Shown here piece by piece: positions 881 to 34,353 of a DNA stretch of 52,339 nt. Positions within the stretch are counted from its first letter, which is position 1, and each line of letters begins with the position of its first letter. The stretch covers positions 1-52,339 of the forward strand of contig JAFWIU010000002.1 in NCBI GenBank assembly GCA_017514765.1. The letters run 5' to 3'. The notes below the pieces were generated by a model. That model was not told the DNA's origin, made no database searches, and saw only the letters and a program-made list of their open reading frames with translations. The stretch comes from Candidatus Saccharimonadota bacterium. GTDB lineage: Bacteria > Patescibacteriota > Saccharimonadia > Saccharimonadales > Saccharimonadaceae. A program made the translations under genes and the position numbers.

Positions 881-1080
881 TGTGGTTTGAATAGTTGTTG
901 TTATGGTTTCAGAGTAAAGTATTTATGGTTTGATTTAGGACTGTTATGGTTTCTGGTTAAAGAATCTATGGTTTAATCCAAGATTGTTATGGTTTAACTG
1001 GATATGTTTATGGTTTAAATGAAAATCGGTTATGGTTTTAATGAAGATGATTATGGTCCAAATGAAAGTTGTTGTGGTTT
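881..1080. repeat. Ten-copy TTATGGTTT array in helical phase (21-22 bp period)
   Basis: The core TGGTTT (one copy is TGGTCC) starts at 883, 904, 926, 947, 969, 990, 1011, 1033, 1054 and 1075, i.e. steps of 21 or 22 bp, averaging 21.3 bp or two DNA turns. The consensus on the plus strand is TTATGGTTT (AAACCATAA on the minus strand). The 12-13 bp between cores differ between most copies, so this is not a fresh tandem duplication; the phase and core look selected. It begins 23 bp upstream of the start codon of the minus-strand surface-protein gene. An operator or activator array on one face of the helix is the best guess; plasmid-like iterons are an alternative. Confidence 0.85.
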
Positions 1081-1268
1081 GAAGTAAGATTAATTGGCGT
1101 CTAACTAATCTGTTATTGTTTTATTATAGCAATAGAAGAATTCTATTTTTCTAAGGGGTGATATTTGTTTTGCTTTCGAGAAAACTCTTATGCTGTAGAT
1201 AAGGGTTGTAATTAGTGTGTGGTGTGCTTAGATGGTGGTGGGTTGGAGAAGATTAGTTTACGAGTCAT

Positions 1269-1333
1269 ATAAATTCCCCTCTGTGTGGGCGAACTTCCGT
1301 GCGGTGAGTTCGCCCCGGAAAGGGGGGATTTAT
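1269..1333. other. Strong two-tier hairpin, possible structured RNA
   Basis: Outer arms 1269-1280 (ATAAATTCCCCT) and 1322-1333 pair over 12 positions with two G-T wobbles. Inside, GGGCGAACT (1287-1295) pairs perfectly with AGTTCGCCC (1307-1315) around an 11-base loop. TTCCG at 1295-1299 can also pair with CGGAA at 1316-1320, a possible pseudoknot. It is much more GC-rich than its surroundings. No RNA family was recognised. Confidence 0.55.
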
Positions 1334-1409
1334 ACGTGACAATTCTAGATAGTCTAGGCAAACCTCCCCGAAGTCAAGTTAACCAAAACAAACACTTACA
1401 GGAGGAAGT

Positions 1410-1481
1410 ATGGAGATAGAGATCGAATTTAGATTTAAGCTCATACGTAAACCTAAAACTAAAACTAAAAAATTACCCTAG
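1410..1481 (+). CDS. Possible 23-residue basic peptide
   Basis: A short frame starts with ATG at 1410 directly after a consensus-like Shine-Dalgarno (AGGAGGAAGT), one of the best ribosome sites in the window, and ends at TAG 1479-1481. The peptide begins MEIEIEFRFKLIRK and ends in a lysine/threonine-rich tail. It sits between two strong hairpins upstream of the giant adhesin. It could be a leader peptide, a small basic protein or chance. No homology is claimed. Confidence 0.35.
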   Translation: MEIEIEFRFKLIRKPKTKTKKLP

Positions 1482-1536
1482 CTGTAGAAAGCGAAGGGTA
1501 ACCATTCCAAACCCGGTAGGGTTCTAGGTTCCTACC

Positions 1537-1568
1537 ACCTGCTACCATTATATATGATGGTAGCAGGT
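1537..1568. other. Perfect 12-bp hairpin before the adhesin promoter
   Basis: ACCTGCTACCAT (1537-1548) is the exact reverse complement of ATGGTAGCAGGT (1557-1568), with an 8-base AT loop. A second small stem, GTAGG/CCTAC, lies just upstream (about 1516-1535). A loose T-run (TTTTTGA) appears 15 bases downstream rather than immediately after, so it is a poor classical terminator. It may end the mini-ORF transcript or be a regulator site. Confidence 0.5.
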
Positions 1569-1634
1569 TCCGCAAGTGGTTTTTGATGGATACTTCTGAA
1601 GGCGCTTATCGTTGCCTCTGTTTGACACGCGTGA

Positions 1635-1668: not shown

Positions 1669-4600
1669 TTGAAAACACTAAAAAACTTTTTAAAACGGGT
1701 AATGAGTGTATTATTAATACCTTTACTCGTAATTGGCGGTCTTCCGCTAGAAATAAACAACGTATTTGCAGCTGAGGGAGATGATGTTCCTCCTACCGTC
1801 GTACCCGAAGATGCGCCGGTACACAGTAAAACGCTTACGCCTAACGGTGATGGGACCTATACTATTGCTCTTAGTGTAACTGGTTCTAGGAAGAGTAGTG
1901 AGACTACGAGTGCTTCGAAGGCTAACGTTATTCTCGTCGTTGATACTTCTAACTCGATGAATGGTAGTAGCGGTGAAACTTCTGCATCTGGTCAGCCTAT
2001 TTCAAGGATTGCTGCAGAAAAAGATGCTCTAACTAAAGACGATGGTATCATTGATAAACTCCTTGCTCAAAATGTTCCTGGAGATTCTGTGAGGTCTGAT
2101 ATTATCGAAGTTGCCGTAGTAAACTTTGGTACTGAAGGGCATACTGCTCAAACATGGACTACGAATGGAACTACTTTGAAAAATACTATTAATGGTTTGA
2201 CGACTTCGACTGGTACTAACTGGGAGGGTGCTCTGCAGATAGCGAAAAATCTTGCCGATGCAAAAAAGCAAGCACAGCCAAATGAGGATATTTATGTTAT
2301 TTTTCTAACTGACGGTGAGCCAACGACCGACGAAACTCGTGCTCGGAATAACCATAATGTCAACATGAGTTATGGTGAAGAATGGGGATATGCCAGCGAT
2401 GATGCGAGAGCCATTGTTTCGGCTGGGTATACTTTCTACGGTCTCTTTACTTGGGGTAGTTCAAGCAACAGCTCGGGTTATTCGCAGACTCCTTCCGCTT
2501 TTCTCAAAAGTTTAGTCCAATATGCATACACTGGAACTGGAACTTATAGCAGTTCTCTAAGCTCTGATTATGCTGAATACTATACCGACGCAAGTAGTAC
2601 TACTGCCCTTATTAATGCGCTAAACCAGATTGTACATAACATTACTACTGGTGTGGGCTATACAGACGTTGAATTGGAAGATGGAATCACGGCAATGACG
2701 GCTTCTAGTGTTAAAGCTTCAGCTAGCGGTAAAGTAACTGGCCTTAAGTATTATCGCTCTGGTGGCCCTTATAGTACAACTGCCAATAATGGTCTTGGTG
2801 AAGAATGGGCTGATGCCCCTGAGGCAACTATCAACGCGAACAATGAAGTAGATTGGGACCTCGGTGATTTGATTCTCGAAAATGGCATAACTTATACTGT
2901 AACGTTTGTGGTCTGGCCAAAGCAATCCTCACTTGATTTGGTTGCAGATTTAAATAATGGCATCATATCTTATGATAGTCTCACTGCTTCTCAGAAATCA
3001 CAGATTAAGCATATTGGTGATAAATATGCACTTAAGACCAATACCGACTTTCCTACTCTGTCTTATTCAACGATTACTACTACTACCGTAGACGGTGTTC
3101 CTACTTCTGTTACCTCTGAACCGACTACTGTCGAAATTGGCAATCCTGACCCTGTTGATCTTTCCGAAGCTAAATTGGCCCTTGAAAAGAAATGGGAAGA
3201 TTCTCTTGATCCAACTCAACGCGAAGAAGTTGGCGGTGAAGTAACGCTTAATCTTCTAATGGATGGTGAACCATATGAAATAAAAATTGGCGATACTTTG
3301 ACGGATGAGATCTTGCTTACTGAAACTAATGATTGGAAGATTAACCCTGGCATTAGTGTGGCTCCCGGTCTTATGGTCACAGAGGACAGTGTTGCCTACG
3401 ATCCTAATGCACCTCAGGTGTCCTATGGTGGCGTAACGTATGCTATTCTTGAGGCTGGTCATGAGTATACCTTTGAGGAAAAAGGTATTAATAATCATTT
3501 CGAACTTACTTCCTACATCCACCATCCAATGAAAATCGGTAATGCGGTTAAAGATGTCTTTTTCAGTCGAGATGCTGATGGTAATATTACCGGCATTGAA
3601 AAGATTGAAAACCTTGATACGCTTTCTGCTACGAATACGTTGAAAGGTGGGATTAATATCGAAAAGAAAGTAGTCGACCAAAATAATAAAGCGATTGACA
3701 TCAGCGATTCATTTGAGATCACTGCACATCTCCTTGATGCCGAAGGGAATCCTTATAGTTACGATTATCGTATTTACTATGGCAAAAAGAACCCAGAATA
3801 CGAATCACACAAAGTGTATGATGCGGAAGGTAATTTAAGATTCAGCCGTAGTGATCATATTTACGGTGAAGGCACATTAACCGAAACTCTCTATATTGGT
3901 GATACTATCCGAATCGTTAACGTGGATGCTGGCGTGCAATATTATGTTGAGGAAACCGAGAAGAACGGCTACGCATCGAAGCCTACCATTACTTACGAAG
4001 AGGTATATGGTACCGAAGAGCCAGGCGATGCTACTGAGGCGGAAGAGGAAGGCTACTATGTGGTTTCTGGTAACACGGCTTCGTCTGTCACTGTGACAAA
4101 TAAATTCCTTGATGAAAAAACTAAGGTTGATTTTGAAAAAACTTGGTATGGCGCGGATGGCAAGGTATTGAATGGGAAGACACTCCCTGGTAGCATTACG
4201 GTTGAACTATTTAAGAAGGGTGCTGATGGTAAAGTAGTCTCAACTGGTAAAACTAAAAAGATTACCGCTGAAAATAGTTGGAAAGCCTCGTTTACTGAGT
4301 TGCCGAAATATGATAATGGAGTTGAGATTGTTTACTCGGTCAAGGAAAGTGCAATTGAGGGCGCTACATATAACGATCAGCAAGACGCTTTCTTCGAATA
4401 TGATACTGAAGAGAATAATGGTCAGCATGCTGTTGTAGGCAGATGGAAGGTGATGACGCTTGAGGATTACATTTTGCAAAACACCTGGACACCAGCCACT
4501 GAGAGCGTTACTGGTCGTACTAGCTTCAATATCAAGAAGGTTGATAAGTCAACTGGTAAGCCGCTTGAGGGCGTAACCTTTGAGTTGAAGATTAAGGACG

Positions 4601-7600
4601 GTGCTACTTTTACGGCGATCACTAATGATAAGGGTGAGGCAACCTTTGATGATTTGGGTGCCGGTGAATATACTCTTAAAGAAACTGATGCGTTAGAAGG
4701 GTACAAGCTAATTACCACTGAGCCTAATATTAATATTACAAGCGTCAAAAAACTTAACACTGTCGATCTCGCTAATTTGAAGAACTTCTATGAATACGTC
4801 TTCTCGTTTAGTACTTCGCAAGTGAATGGGTACACATTTGACACTCAGAATCGTACATTTACGGTCGAAAACGAACCAATCCCCTACATTGATATTACGG
4901 CTGCTAAGGTTTGGAACGATGGTGAAAACCGTGATGGCCTACGAAAGAATTATGCGAATTATTATATAGCGGTGAAGAATAATAGTGGCAAGTACGTAGC
5001 ATATGAAAAGTTAGTGCTTGTAGATAAGAATGATTATGAGTTTAAGCATTTACCAACAAAGACCGCGAATAATGAAGACATTACCTATGAGATTGTGGAA
5101 GCTTCGACTTGTAGTGGTAGTGGTAATTCGATTAGATGTACTGAGTTTACTGGTGATGATGATTACACCGTAACGGTTGCGGAAGGCGTAATTACCAACT
5201 TCCATGAGCCAGCGCTATATGACGAAACTGGTGAATTGACTGTACAAAAGATTTGGAACGGTGAAGGTAATGAATTGGTTAGACCAACCACGATTACGAT
5301 TGAGCTTTATGCTAACGGTTCGAGATTGGGAGAGCCAGTTACGATTTCAGCAGCGAATGAATGGAAACACACTTTCAGAGAGTTGTATCTAAACGAAGGT
5401 GGTAAGCCAATTGTGTATTCGGTGCAAGAATCTAAACTTGGTGAAACTGCATTTGGCGAAGATGAGAGTGTAATAGTTATACTATCAAATGACGGTGCAG
5501 TTGCGGGCAGCTGGACTAAGAGTGTAGATAATAATAAACATGAAGTGACGAATACTTGGACAAAGCCAACTGAGGAGATTGAATATGATGGTGAAGATGA
5601 GTTTTTGATTAAGAAGTACGATGGTGACGGAAAGGCATTACAGGGTGTAGTGTTTACGGTCGGTGACAAGGACTATACGACGGATAAGAATGGTGAGATT
5701 AAGATTGCGGTGCCGTTAACTAAGAATAAAAAGGAAGAAAGTTTTGAATACGAGATTACCGAGAAGGAGACTTTGGAAGGATATGATATCGTATCGGGTT
5801 CGGCGACGGTGGCGGTAAGCTGTACTAGTGTGCTTGCTAGTGCAAATACGGAGACTCTAGTGAATACTTATACAAAGACGTGTGAGTTTACTAAGAGTGG
5901 CAGTAGTGCATATGAGTGGAGTGGCGATAGTTATACATTAAAGGTGATGAATAAAAGAAGCTTGGCAAAATCATTGACGATCAAAAAGACAGTAGTGGGG
6001 TTATCGGCGAAGGTGCTAAGTAATTTGGAGTTTACGATTACTGGCCCAGAAGACTTTGGTGAAAACGGTCAGATGACTTTGAGGGTAAGTGAAGATTGTA
6101 CGACTGCGGGTGAAGTAATTACTTGTAAAGTTGATGGTAAAGTGCCGACCGGTCAGTATACGGTGAAAGAAAGCAATGCTGAGGTGGAGAACTTTACTTT
6201 GACGATAACTGGTGATGATAACGCAACGAAGAAGGTGACGAAGGATGCTGAGGTGGAATTTGCGATTACGAACAGTTATGAAAAGATTCGCGATGTATCG
6301 TATTCAGTGAAGAAGATTTGGGAAGATGATGGGGATCGTGATGGACTCAGGCCAGAAAAATTAACAGTAACTTTGCAAAGAAATGGTTCGGCTTATGGCG
6401 ATCCGGTGGAATTAACTGGTAATGATTGGGCTTATACATGGAAGAACTTACCGAGAGCGGATGAGGATGCGACTTTGTATGAGTATAGTGTGGTGGAGGA
6501 AGAAATAGGCGATTATGATTCGGATAATGGAAAGATGGAGGATGGAATATTTACCTTTACTAACACACATGAGCCGTATATGTATGATGATTCTGGTGAG
6601 TTAACAGTAGAAAAAGTGTGGACAGGTGAAGGTAACGAATTGGTCCGAGAGCCGGTTACGGTGATGCTTTATGGACAAATTACAAATGATGAGGGGGTCA
6701 CGGAGACTTGGGAGGAAGCTGGACCAGTCACTTTGTCGGAAGTGACTGAGTGGAAATGGACTTTCGAAGGGTTGTATAAGAACAAGAGTGGCCATGAAAT
6801 TACTTACATTGTAGAGGAGACGGCGATTGGTGAAAATGCGTTTAGCGAGAGCAGTAGTACGCTTGTGATATATGACGGTGAGAGGATTAAGGGTTCGTGG
6901 ACGAAGAACGAAGCGTTAGATCATACGGTGACGAATGAGTGGAAAGAATCTACGGATGAGGTTGTATATGAAGGTGCTAAGAAGTTTAACATTAAGAAAG
7001 TGGACGAAAATTACAAGGCGATGGAAGGTGTAGTGTTTGAGGTGAACGGAAAAGAAAAGACTACCGAAGAGAATGGTATGGCTTCCAAGAGCGTGCCGGT
7101 AACGGCTGATAAAAAAGAAGAGAGCTTTGAGTTCGTAATTCGCGAAAAGGAAACTTTGGAAGGTTATGATCTTGCGAATGGCTCGGCGACGATTACGGTG
7201 ATTTGTACCAGTGCACTGTCTGGCGTAGATACAGATACATTGGTGAATACTTACACTAAGACTTGTACATTTAGTGACGAGGTGGGTGAGGCGTTTACGT
7301 GGGATGGTGATAGTTTAACTCTCACAGTCTTGAATAAGCGGAGCTTGGCTAAGTCGTTTAAGATTGAGAAGACGGTGACGGGGGTATCGGCAAAGATTTT
7401 GAAAGATTTGGAGTTCGTGGTGAGGGGTCCAGAAGACTTTGCGGAAGTGACTTTGAAGGTAAGTGAGGATTGCGCGGTTTCTGGCGATGTGATTACCTGC
7501 GAGCTAGAAGGTAGGGTCCCGACGGGTAAATATACGGTTGAGGAAAAGAATGCGGAGATTGAGAACTTTACTTTGAATGCGACGAGTGATGAGGAAATTA

Positions 7601-8487
7601 CGGTGACGAAGGGGCAGGACGCAGTATTTAAGATAACAAATGAATATGAAGTGGATAAAACCGTGTATACTGTAGTGAAGCTTTGGGATGATGAATACAA
7701 TAATGATGGTAAGAGGCCGGGTACTTTGACGGTAAAGTTGCTGGCTGGTGGTGAGACCGTAGGAAGTAAAGATTTGTCGGATGATTATTCGGTGGCTGAA
7801 GAAGATTTGCCGGAGGACATGGCGGGTTATGATGTATGGATGTATGAGTTTACGGATTTGCCAGTAGCGGACGAGAACGCTGAGGTGATTGAGTATATAG
7901 CGGAAGAGGTTCTAGAGTCTGATGATTATGAGCAGGTATGGGTTGGTGGTGATCAATATTCGATGACATTTGTGAACTACCATGAGCCGGAATTGATTAA
8001 GAACGATGATGACGATCCAGATAATGATGGTCAGTTGGTGGTGACGAAGGTATGGGACGATGAGGATAACTTTGGTAATACACGCCCGGCTAGTATTACG
8101 GTAGAGCTATTGGCGGACGGTGAAGTGATTGACACGGTTGAAATTGAGCCAGATGAAGACGGCAATTGGGAGTATATATTTGAAGGATTGCGTAAGTATA
8201 GAGATGGTGAGGAAATTGAGTACACGATCAATGAGATAGTGGTGGAGAACTATGATACTTCGTATGAGCACAATGGCTATGACTATGTGATTAATAATAT
8301 GATTACGGATGTGTGCTTGATTGGTGGTTGTGGTGGTGACATCATTCCAATCATTACACCTGAGACTGGTCGGTTGACGAACGTAGGTAGTGGTGTAAGC
8401 ATGGATAATACTTTTGTAATGATTGCCTTTACGCTGACTGGTGCAATATTGATGGTGGGTGGTGTGATGTTTGCGAAGCGGAAGTAG
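1669..8487 (+). CDS. Giant VWA/CnaB-repeat sortase-anchored adhesin
   Basis: A 2272-residue surface protein, starting at TTG 1669. Residues 1-35 are a signal peptide (basic, then VMSVLLIPLLVIGGL, ending VFAAE). Residues about 84-335 form a von Willebrand A domain with MIDAS motif DTSNS and the later TDGEP segment. From about residue 500 there are some dozen Ig-like CnaB and SpaA-like modules, recognisable by repeated KxWxDDxxxDGxRP, GELTVxKxWxGEGNELVR, FNIKKVDxxxxxxxGVxFE and TxTHEP segments, families that often form Lys-Asn isopeptide bonds. A 455-codon block starting at the HEP codons at 5203 recurs from 6568. Paired cysteines (SEDCxxxGxVITC, CTSxLxxxxTxTLVNTYTKTC) suggest disulfides. The C-terminus has TPETG (about 2230), a helix and a KRK tail, a sortase-like anchor; a sortase lies at 51115. 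The layout resembles tip adhesins of Gram-positive sortase pili. Strand composition changes part way through (C-rich early, G-rich late). Confidence 0.88.
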   Translation: MKTLKNFLKRVMSVLLIPLLVIGGLPLEINNVFAAEGDDVPPTVVPEDAPVHSKTLTPNGDGTYTIALSVTGSRKSSETTSASKANVILVVDTSNSMNGSSGETSASGQPISRIAAEKDALTKDDGIIDKLLAQNVPGDSVRSDIIEVAVVNFGTEGHTAQTWTTNGTTLKNTINGLTTSTGTNWEGALQIAKNLADAKKQAQPNEDIYVIFLTDGEPTTDETRARNNHNVNMSYGEEWGYASDDARAIVSAGYTFYGLFTWGSSSNSSGYSQTPSAFLKSLVQYAYTGTGTYSSSLSSDYAEYYTDASSTTALINALNQIVHNITTGVGYTDVELEDGITAMTASSVKASASGKVTGLKYYRSGGPYSTTANNGLGEEWADAPEATINANNEVDWDLGDLILENGITYTVTFVVWPKQSSLDLVADLNNGIISYDSLTASQKSQIKHIGDKYALKTNTDFPTLSYSTITTTTVDGVPTSVTSEPTTVEIGNPDPVDLSEAKLALEKKWEDSLDPTQREEVGGEVTLNLLMDGEPYEIKIGDTLTDEILLTETNDWKINPGISVAPGLMVTEDSVAYDPNAPQVSYGGVTYAILEAGHEYTFEEKGINNHFELTSYIHHPMKIGNAVKDVFFSRDADGNITGIEKIENLDTLSATNTLKGGINIEKKVVDQNNKAIDISDSFEITAHLLDAEGNPYSYDYRIYYGKKNPEYESHKVYDAEGNLRFSRSDHIYGEGTLTETLYIGDTIRIVNVDAGVQYYVEETEKNGYASKPTITYEEVYGTEEPGDATEAEEEGYYVVSGNTASSVTVTNKFLDEKTKVDFEKTWYGADGKVLNGKTLPGSITVELFKKGADGKVVSTGKTKKITAENSWKASFTELPKYDNGVEIVYSVKESAIEGATYNDQQDAFFEYDTEENNGQHAVVGRWKVMTLEDYILQNTWTPATESVTGRTSFNIKKVDKSTGKPLEGVTFELKIKDGATFTAITNDKGEATFDDLGAGEYTLKETDALEGYKLITTEPNINITSVKKLNTVDLANLKNFYEYVFSFSTSQVNGYTFDTQNRTFTVENEPIPYIDITAAKVWNDGENRDGLRKNYANYYIAVKNNSGKYVAYEKLVLVDKNDYEFKHLPTKTANNEDITYEIVEASTCSGSGNSIRCTEFTGDDDYTVTVAEGVITNFHEPALYDETGELTVQKIWNGEGNELVRPTTITIELYANGSRLGEPVTISAANEWKHTFRELYLNEGGKPIVYSVQESKLGETAFGEDESVIVILSNDGAVAGSWTKSVDNNKHEVTNTWTKPTEEIEYDGEDEFLIKKYDGDGKALQGVVFTVGDKDYTTDKNGEIKIAVPLTKNKKEESFEYEITEKETLEGYDIVSGSATVAVSCTSVLASANTETLVNTYTKTCEFTKSGSSAYEWSGDSYTLKVMNKRSLAKSLTIKKTVVGLSAKVLSNLEFTITGPEDFGENGQMTLRVSEDCTTAGEVITCKVDGKVPTGQYTVKESNAEVENFTLTITGDDNATKKVTKDAEVEFAITNSYEKIRDVSYSVKKIWEDDGDRDGLRPEKLTVTLQRNGSAYGDPVELTGNDWAYTWKNLPRADEDATLYEYSVVEEEIGDYDSDNGKMEDGIFTFTNTHEPYMYDDSGELTVEKVWTGEGNELVREPVTVMLYGQITNDEGVTETWEEAGPVTLSEVTEWKWTFEGLYKNKSGHEITYIVEETAIGENAFSESSSTLVIYDGERIKGSWTKNEALDHTVTNEWKESTDEVVYEGAKKFNIKKVDENYKAMEGVVFEVNGKEKTTEENGMASKSVPVTADKKEESFEFVIREKETLEGYDLANGSATITVICTSALSGVDTDTLVNTYTKTCTFSDEVGEAFTWDGDSLTLTVLNKRSLAKSFKIEKTVTGVSAKILKDLEFVVRGPEDFAEVTLKVSEDCAVSGDVITCELEGRVPTGKYTVEEKNAEIENFTLNATSDEEITVTKGQDAVFKITNEYEVDKTVYTVVKLWDDEYNNDGKRPGTLTVKLLAGGETVGSKDLSDDYSVAEEDLPEDMAGYDVWMYEFTDLPVADENAEVIEYIAEEVLESDDYEQVWVGGDQYSMTFVNYHEPELIKNDDDDPDNDGQLVVTKVWDDEDNFGNTRPASITVELLADGEVIDTVEIEPDEDGNWEYIFEGLRKYRDGEEIEYTINEIVVENYDTSYEHNGYDYVINNMITDVCLIGGCGGDIIPIITPETGRLTNVGSGVSMDNTFVMIAFTLTGAILMVGGVMFAKRK

Positions 8488-32421: not shown

Positions 32422-34353
32422 ATGAAAAGAACCGTACTTGTTTTGGTGGCTATGACTTTTATGAGCGGGGTTGTATTGTTGTCCTGTAATACTATGGCTG
32501 ATGAATCAGTGGTAACTACGACGTCTATTACGGTACCGATTGCCTGTACAATGCAGGGAACTGGTACGACACATGCAGCGACTCTGTCACCGAATACTTA
32601 TTCAGGTGCATCTGGCTCTACATATGAGAACGGTATTGGTAAAACTACTCTAACTGCCATATGTAATGACGATAATGGCTTCTCCATTTATGCGATAGGA
32701 TATACTGGTAATTCATATGACTCAGAGAACCATACTAAACTAGTTGGTACTAATACAGGCGGTACTATCTCTACTAAAGCCTATGCATCAGGAGACACTA
32801 CCTCAAACTGGTCCATGAAGTTGACTAAAGTCACCGATACATCAGAATCTTACAACCCACAAAACTTAACTATCTCAACTGGTTATGATGATTGGATAGC
32901 GGTACCAGCATCCTTTACTAAGGTAGCGCAATATAAAGCCAATACCGGTTCTTCTACTACGGATATGACATTAGGTGTTAAACTAGAAACTACCTATGCA
33001 GCTTATGTATCCGCTAATCAACCAGCCGATACTTACATAGGACAAGTGAAGTATACAATGGTGCATCCGTATAATGAAGAACCAGCACAACCACGGCAAG
33101 CTACAGCTGGTTGCATTAACTATTTTGCTAATGCAAGTAGTGCAGTGGGTAGTATGGGATGTCAACCTGCATCAGATGGCCAAACAAAAACCCTTCTCGC
33201 ATCTAACTATAGTAGAACCGGCTATGGTTTTGCGGGATGGTCTGATAAGTTTGATTATGCTACCAACAACGAGGCTCACTTCTATGGTCCACAGGAAGAC
33301 ATTACAGTACCAACTGGTACTACCGCTAATGGTCTAAGTCTCTATGCTGTGTGGGTAAAGTCTGAAGGTAACTTACAAGATACTAGTAAAGTCTCATCTA
33401 TCTGTTCTGGGCTTACTACTGCTCCAACTGACGGCACCGCTAACCTCGCCAGTGTCTCCGCTCTCACTGATCAACGCGACAATGAAACTTACGCCATCGC
33501 CAAACTCGCTGACGGTAAGTGCTGGATGATTGAGAACCTAAGACTAGAAAGCATCAATAGTGACAACTCCACTGGTGCTCTGGCTCAAGGTTACGGCACT
33601 TCTACTACCTATGGTAATTTTTCGGGCTTAGCTGACTCGGAAACTTCAGATAAGTTTGATTCAACTTATGTTGCCAATAGCTTGTATAGTAATGACGGCA
33701 GTAATGATACCATTAATATAGGTACATCAAATTACCCAGCCTACCGAATGCCACGTTATAATAACACTAACACTTCCGTTCGTGCTTCTTCTCCTACCGC
33801 GAATAGTGGAGCGATGTATAGTTATGGTAACTACTACACTTGGCACGCAGCTATTGCAGACCTCACCTATAATGGTACTAATAATAGTAGCGTAACAAAT
33901 ACATCTCTTTGCCCATCCGGCTGGCATTTGCCAACAGGTGGCGGAGCATACGCATCGGACGACACTACTGGAGTGAATATTACTGGAAATATCAGCACTT
34001 ATCGTGAATTCTATAATCTAGGTTACAAGATTATGGACGAAGTGACGACTGCCTATGAAGATACCCCGAATGATCACAAATCATATTATAGTAGTAATAC
34101 CGTCAATACGGTAGGTGATTCTGCTGATAAAGCTTTCCGTAAGTATCCTAATAATTTCGTTTATTCTGGTTCCGTCTATGGTGGTTCTTCAGTAGCTTAT
34201 CGTGGCTCGTATGGCTATTATTGGTCTTCTACAGCTCAATCGTTCGGCTACGCCTACTTTTTGTATTTGTATTCGTCCCATGTTAGTCCAGGTACAAGTA
34301 CCACTTTTAAAACTTATGGAAGATCTATTCGTTGCCTTGTACCTAGTATTTAG
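32422..34353 (+). CDS. Secreted FISUMP-domain surface protein
   Basis: 643 residues. TATAAT (32410-32415) is six bases from the ATG, a leaderless start. The signal peptide ends VVLLSCNTMA, where LLSC could be a lipobox, making it a possible lipoprotein. Residues about 30-220 match the partial protein at 1-858. Residues about 225-315 hold an InlB/Listeria-Bacteroides type repeat (SRTGYGFAGWS ... GLSLYAVWV). The rest is a FISUMP domain (Fibrobacter major paralogous domain): ADGKCWMIENLRLES, CPSGWHLPT, and YYWSST with a final IRCLV. Function is unknown; such proteins are secreted and often occur in paralogous sets. Codons are C- and A-rich, unlike the G-rich neighbours. The 120 bp after the stop holds only a weak TAGTTT/AAACTA stem with a T-run near 34386. 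Confidence 0.82.
   Translation: MKRTVLVLVAMTFMSGVVLLSCNTMADESVVTTTSITVPIACTMQGTGTTHAATLSPNTYSGASGSTYENGIGKTTLTAICNDDNGFSIYAIGYTGNSYDSENHTKLVGTNTGGTISTKAYASGDTTSNWSMKLTKVTDTSESYNPQNLTISTGYDDWIAVPASFTKVAQYKANTGSSTTDMTLGVKLETTYAAYVSANQPADTYIGQVKYTMVHPYNEEPAQPRQATAGCINYFANASSAVGSMGCQPASDGQTKTLLASNYSRTGYGFAGWSDKFDYATNNEAHFYGPQEDITVPTGTTANGLSLYAVWVKSEGNLQDTSKVSSICSGLTTAPTDGTANLASVSALTDQRDNETYAIAKLADGKCWMIENLRLESINSDNSTGALAQGYGTSTTYGNFSGLADSETSDKFDSTYVANSLYSNDGSNDTINIGTSNYPAYRMPRYNNTNTSVRASSPTANSGAMYSYGNYYTWHAAIADLTYNGTNNSSVTNTSLCPSGWHLPTGGGAYASDDTTGVNITGNISTYREFYNLGYKIMDEVTTAYEDTPNDHKSYYSSNTVNTVGDSADKAFRKYPNNFVYSGSVYGGSSVAYRGSYGYYWSSTAQSFGYAYFLYLYSSHVSPGTSTTFKTYGRSIRCLVPSI

Follow-up and report, generated by a model that had tools for sequence, protein, structure and literature searches.

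What might a run of ten short, evenly stepped repeats do in front of a surface-protein gene in a bacterium with a minimal genome? The run lies near the start of the window, the whole 52,339-nucleotide stretch analyzed here, from a Candidatus Saccharimonadota bacterium that is probably host-attached or host-dependent; the window is contig C11 from its first base, in a genome of 697 kb and 12 contigs. The answer that we favor, and hold to be moderately probable, is that the repeats are tandem operators for one sequence-specific DNA-binding protein, most likely an activator, with the promoter-proximal copy replacing the −35 element.

The family to which the surface-protein gene belongs has 15 matches in its own genome and at least one match in 124 of 174 genomes of the genus. 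The full-length paralogue at 32422 carries a C-terminal FISUMP domain (TIGR02145, above cut-off) and starts 24 bp after the preceding ORF. Four contigs (C11 at 1–858, C3, C5, and C8) begin or end within family genes, whose copies are therefore hard to assemble. Over 286 aa the copy on C5 matches that of the window at 95% identity, and over 103 aa the copy on C3 does so at 97%, near-identities that suggest recombination between family members. The literature searched gave nothing relevant on FISUMP proteins or on Saccharibacteria promoters. The array occupies a chromosomal promoter with ribosomal-protein genes nearby. In several relatives, ribosomal protein S8 lies directly 5′ of the VWA/Cna gene; here and in genomes G314 and G294 the family gene takes its position, together with an RNA module here and in G314.

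Table 1. Features of the array locus and of the paralogue, in window coordinates
Feature	Position	Strand	Remarks
Surface protein, N-terminal 286 aa	1–858	−	Signal-peptide-like start; cut by contig end; FISUMP-containing paralogous family
Extended −10, TATGCTATACT	865–875	−	No recognizable −35; from sequence, two-hexamer scan negative
Box 1, AAACCACAA on gene strand	880–888	−	Promoter-proximal; exactly 4 bp 5′ of extended −10
Box 2, AAACCATAA	901–909	−	
Box 3, AAACCATAA	923–931	−	
Box 4, AAACCATAA	944–952	−	
Box 5, AAACCATAG	966–974	−	
Box 6, AAACCATAA	987–995	−	
Box 7, AAACCATAA	1008–1016	−	
Box 8, AAACCATAA	1030–1038	−	
Box 9, GGACCATAA	1051–1059	−	Decayed
Box 10, AAACCACAA	1072–1080	−	Aligns with distal box (AAACCACAA) of two-box G314 promoter
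Structured RNA module, ~370 nt	1203–1575	+	Between array and divergent gene; conserved independently of boxes
Small ORF in RNA module	1410–1481	+	23 aa here, ~26 aa in relatives; conserved AGGAGG before it
VWA/Cna_B/SpaA repeat surface protein	1669–8487	+	Divergent; also divergent from family gene in G314 and G294
Full-length paralogue, 643 aa, FISUMP domain	32422–34353	+	Without array

Phased boxes at an extended −10 promoter

Ten 9-bp boxes, TTATGGTTT on the + strand and AAACCATAA on the gene strand, occupy positions 880–1080 (table 1). Their starts follow one another in steps of 21, 22, 21, 22, 21, 21, 22, 21, and 21 bp, with spacers of 12–13 bp throughout. Six of the ten match TTATGGTTT exactly, and the others read TTGTGGTTT (twice), CTATGGTTT, and TTATGGTCC. 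All lie on one face of the DNA: phase coherence peaks at 0.985 at 10.7 bp per turn, a value reached by none of 20,000 random-spacing arrays. The boxes depart from the column majority in 5 of 90 cells, the spacers in 47 of 120 (Fisher p = 5e-9). These measurements agree with the sequence-only reading, which had described ten cores in 21–22-bp steps (its span of 883–1075 being that of the TGG triplets within the boxes), held on the same DNA face while the spacer sequence drifted; its remark that the paralogue at 32422 is without such an array was likewise borne out. The spaced pair TATGGTTT-N10..14-TATGGTTT occurs in its own genome in the array only, and nowhere in 294 other genomes of the taxonomic family. 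Intrinsic curvature was rejected as a property of the array, the predicted net bend being no higher than in shuffles (41% of which were as high).

Along the gene strand the order is AAACCACAA-GAAC-TATGCTATACT, with the ATG 6 bp further on, so placed that transcription would start at or next to the ATG (near 858). A consensus scan found no sigma-70-type two-hexamer site at this promoter. Box 1 falls at about −30 to −22, at a fixed 4-bp distance from the extended −10. It had been proposed that the array starts at the position of a missing −35; the promoter does lack a −35, but box 1 lies just downstream of where that hexamer would be.

The same geometry recurs in paralogues and in other species. 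In 170 genomes of the genus, box-N4-TATGNTA gave 32 matches against 2 for the reversed pattern, and when the gap was varied from 0 to 14 no length other than N4 gave more than 7. Family genes lie directly downstream of 10 of the 32 sites (in genomes G000, G314, G372, G228, and G328), and most family promoters with a box are missing the −35. The remaining sites, about 22, are upstream of other genes or of none recognized. The family therefore does not have the box to itself, and a general promoter element is conceivable. In one form of that idea, the housekeeping RNA polymerase itself reads the box as a lineage-specific upstream element and copies 2–10 are decoys or by-products. It would account for the strong preference for the N4 gap and for the occurrence of the arrangement in front of unrelated genes as well, among them homologues of der, ftsK, and ftsE (names read from sequence). 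We nevertheless regard it as decidedly unlikely: nine further copies away from any −10 still keep the box, and general extended −10 promoters in the DNA fetched are without it. A control set of genus DNA that had been fetched without use of the box (about 709 kb, both strands) contained 59 extended −10 sites; six of these had at least 7 box matches at the expected offset, and all six are at family genes.

Copy number and age of the array

The number of boxes differs among related promoters: ten here, one at the near-identical C5 paralogue, which has the same promoter, two in G314, and two in G294; as one genome per species was compared, these are differences between species and paralogues. At the syntenic locus of G314, which shares the divergent VWA/Cna gene and the RNA module, the distance between the two boxes is 21 bp. 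In G294 the boxes at the syntenic locus, AAAGCATAA and AAACCATAA, are 20 bp apart, and the first is again 4 bp from TATGATATTAT. The AAACCACAA variant is shared by the box at 880 with the C5 box and by the box at 1072 with the distal box of G314.

Within the array, box identity between copies is 89% and mean spacer identity 43%, compared with 34% in shuffles. Spacer similarity is highest, at 56%, between units two apart, which suggests that the array grew by 43-bp duplications; Tandem Repeats Finder reports a 43-bp period at 81–82%. The spacers could be read as the remains of a neutral tandem repeat, a unit of 21–22 or 43 bp that was duplicated and is now decaying, and the similarity of the spacers above shuffles, the two-unit peak, and the 43-bp period would then be its traces. 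Decay, however, should strike box and spacer alike, contrary to the 5 of 90 against 47 of 120 mismatches found, and the part of the unit that is conserved is the very box conserved at other promoters. We therefore consider a purely neutral origin highly improbable.

Between G000 and G314, identity at the fourfold-degenerate sites of the neighboring gene is 73%. Because the spacers of the array are only 43% identical to one another, the array looks old, as if copies had been pruned at other loci and selection had acted on its boxes. If the spacers are neutral, the copies would be older than the split between G000 and G314, and G314 and C5 would have lost copies. The sequence-only reading had proposed copy-number tuning or phase-varying expression. 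Copy number does differ between loci (10, 2, 2, and 1), a series that supports slow evolutionary change at related promoters; phase variation by slippage is not supported, the copies having diverged too far for ready slippage. That reading had also considered that relatives might lack the array or keep it out of phase: the ten copies are indeed lacking there, but one or two boxes are kept, the second 20–21 bp away.

How the boxes may act

Box 1, 4 bp 5′ of the extended −10, would stand in for the −35 element, and a protein bound to it would touch the RNA polymerase and activate transcription. Additional copies, each two turns of the helix from the last, would bring more of the protein to the same face, perhaps cooperatively, and this greater loading would raise or sharpen expression. 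We infer that the sites bind a protein, that its effect is activation and not repression, and that expression is tuned by the number of copies. The distance between box and −10, strict to a single base pair, together with the missing −35, argues for an activator touching the polymerase.

The same sites might instead bind a repressor that fills −30 to −22, spreads along the face of the array, and silences the gene until released. A protein on box 1, in the interval from −35 to −10, would get in the way of the polymerase; phased sites in tandem are well suited to spreading by cooperative binding; and an extended −10 could function without an activator. Yet a repressor site would tolerate positions other than N4, the exact 4-bp spacing across genes and species is stricter than repression requires, and most box-bearing family promoters are without a −35. 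Repression is thus, to our mind, unlikely.

The array also lies next to a second conserved unit. A query containing the RNA module between it and the divergent gene gave blastn matches in 52 of 170 genus genomes, often in several places, some of them covering only the VWA-gene promoter. Among 12 aligned copies, 56 consensus pairs were found, 20 of which are changed on both sides; no Rfam family was found in the window. At 1110–1155, beside the array, the window has in degraded form what in G314 is a terminator-like hairpin (AAGATTCTATTGCTT/AAGCAATAGAATCTT followed by a run of T). Since the array sits between the surface gene and the RNA module, it might serve the latter (+ strand, 1203–1575) or recombination among family genes, which the contig breaks inside them make conceivable, rather than the surface-gene promoter. 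We give this hardly any credence: many genomes keep the RNA module without boxes, and box 1 is locked to the −10 of the surface gene.

Operators for an activator are favored by the boxes at the syntenic promoters of G314 and G294, which were kept while the spacers drifted. Against them we count that ten copies occur at this locus only, that one or two boxes suffice in two species and at a close paralogue, and that searches of the genome for three regulator domains were negative. Repeats spaced by about 21 bp are usually bound by LytTR, AraC-type, or OmpR-type proteins. The LytTR domain (PF04397) is absent from the bacterium's own genome and above cut-off in none of 147 genus genomes, and neither the AraC-type HTH (PF12833) nor the OmpR/PhoB Trans_reg_C domain (PF00486) was found in its own genome. 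LytTR, AraC/XylS, and OmpR/PhoB regulons were rejected on these grounds. The sequence-only idea of an activator or repressor array accordingly survives in part: the array is phased and probably protein-binding, and its boxes are conserved beyond the spacers and kept at syntenic promoters; the phase variation attached to it is not supported.

In the literature searched, we found no promoter-level regulator of Saccharibacteria surface proteins. A wider proposal, which we advance tentatively and consider rather doubtful, is that an undescribed DNA-binding protein reads AAACCAYAA 4 bp from an extended −10 and controls part of the surface family, the number of phased operators, differing by locus and species, setting the expression of each member in a lineage without LytTR, AraC, or OmpR-type domains. 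Because bait (the box) and target promoters are both defined, the question of a surface-gene regulator in these minimal genomes is directly testable, and related promoters with 1, 2, and 10 copies offer a dose series ready-made by nature.

Comparison with other repeat arrays

A three-box scan covered 84,980 genomes; among the matches listed from it, many elsewhere are coding repeats or have a 7-bp unit. L022, the one record from Saccharibacteria among the matches listed, was set aside: its 20–21-bp repeat has conserved spacers and is not at a family promoter. It is not counted as support because the box itself was the search query. This goat Saccharibacteria record (L022:1–1480) has the same sequence as locus L207 of G303, a genome of the window's genus. 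In it, an ORF resembling a reverse transcriptase (YYGRYVDDF) is followed by a 20–21-bp TTATGGTTT array and then by an opposite-strand, asparagine-rich frame that looks like the template of a diversity-generating retroelement. No reverse transcriptase, and so no such retroelement, was found in the window's own genome. In three genus species (L206, L210, and L211), a TTWTCCACA-like word is flanked by a pair of boxes with a 21-bp step, 5′ of a conserved block and, in L206 and L211, with a FemAB-like gene downstream; considered as DnaA boxes, these loci were judged a different locus. Rumen and oral Prevotella-type genomes (L013, L016, L030, L048, L078, L086, L098, L101, L108, and others) contain exact 22-bp-period arrays, several per genome, with drifting spacers and a core like AAARCCTATGGTTT that is near-palindromic, unlike the present box.

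Plasmid-origin iterons are direct repeats of about 21–22 bp whose conserved cores keep helical phase. The array resembles them in each of these respects but stands at a chromosomal promoter beside ribosomal-protein genes, and no replication-initiator gene was recognized among the window proteins scanned. A CRISPR array was rejected, since 9-bp cores with 12–13-bp spacers are not near-identical repeats with longer unique spacers. In Pho boxes, an activator (PhoB) box replaces the −35 about 10 bp 5′ of the −10, and tandem copies follow in phase every 11 bp. The array likewise has a box in the place of the −35 and tandem copies in helical phase. No second half-site was found one turn from the box (similarity at offsets 10 and 11 of 1.89 and 2.89, against 3.32 expected); the array thus differs in lacking a 10–11-bp half-site, and the genome in lacking an OmpR/PhoB DNA-binding domain.

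LytTR regulators bind two 9-bp direct repeats with a sequence near ACCRCTTAN, separated by spacers of 11–13 bp (12), which makes a step of some two turns of the helix; the promoter is of a weak or extended −10 type, and the pair lies a few to about 10 bp, most often 10 bp, 5′ of the −35 (PMC6193735). The array shares the 9-bp direct repeats, the spacers of 12–13 bp, and the extended −10 promoter (PMC6193735). It differs in having ten copies, the first of them within the −35/−10 interval (−30 to −22), and in the lack of a LytTR domain. The vlhA promoters of Mycoplasma gallisepticum carry a perfect GAA array that varies between strains and is considered active only at 12 repeats (PMC6258824). 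Common to both systems are a large surface-protein family, a minimal genome, and a repeat array just 5′ of the promoter (PMC6258824), but the units here are 21–22 bp long and diverged around conserved 9-bp cores, rather than near-identical and able to slip. Features that define the LytTR and vlhA systems fail at this locus, and the array is best filed among multi-copy operator arrays, as a new variant.
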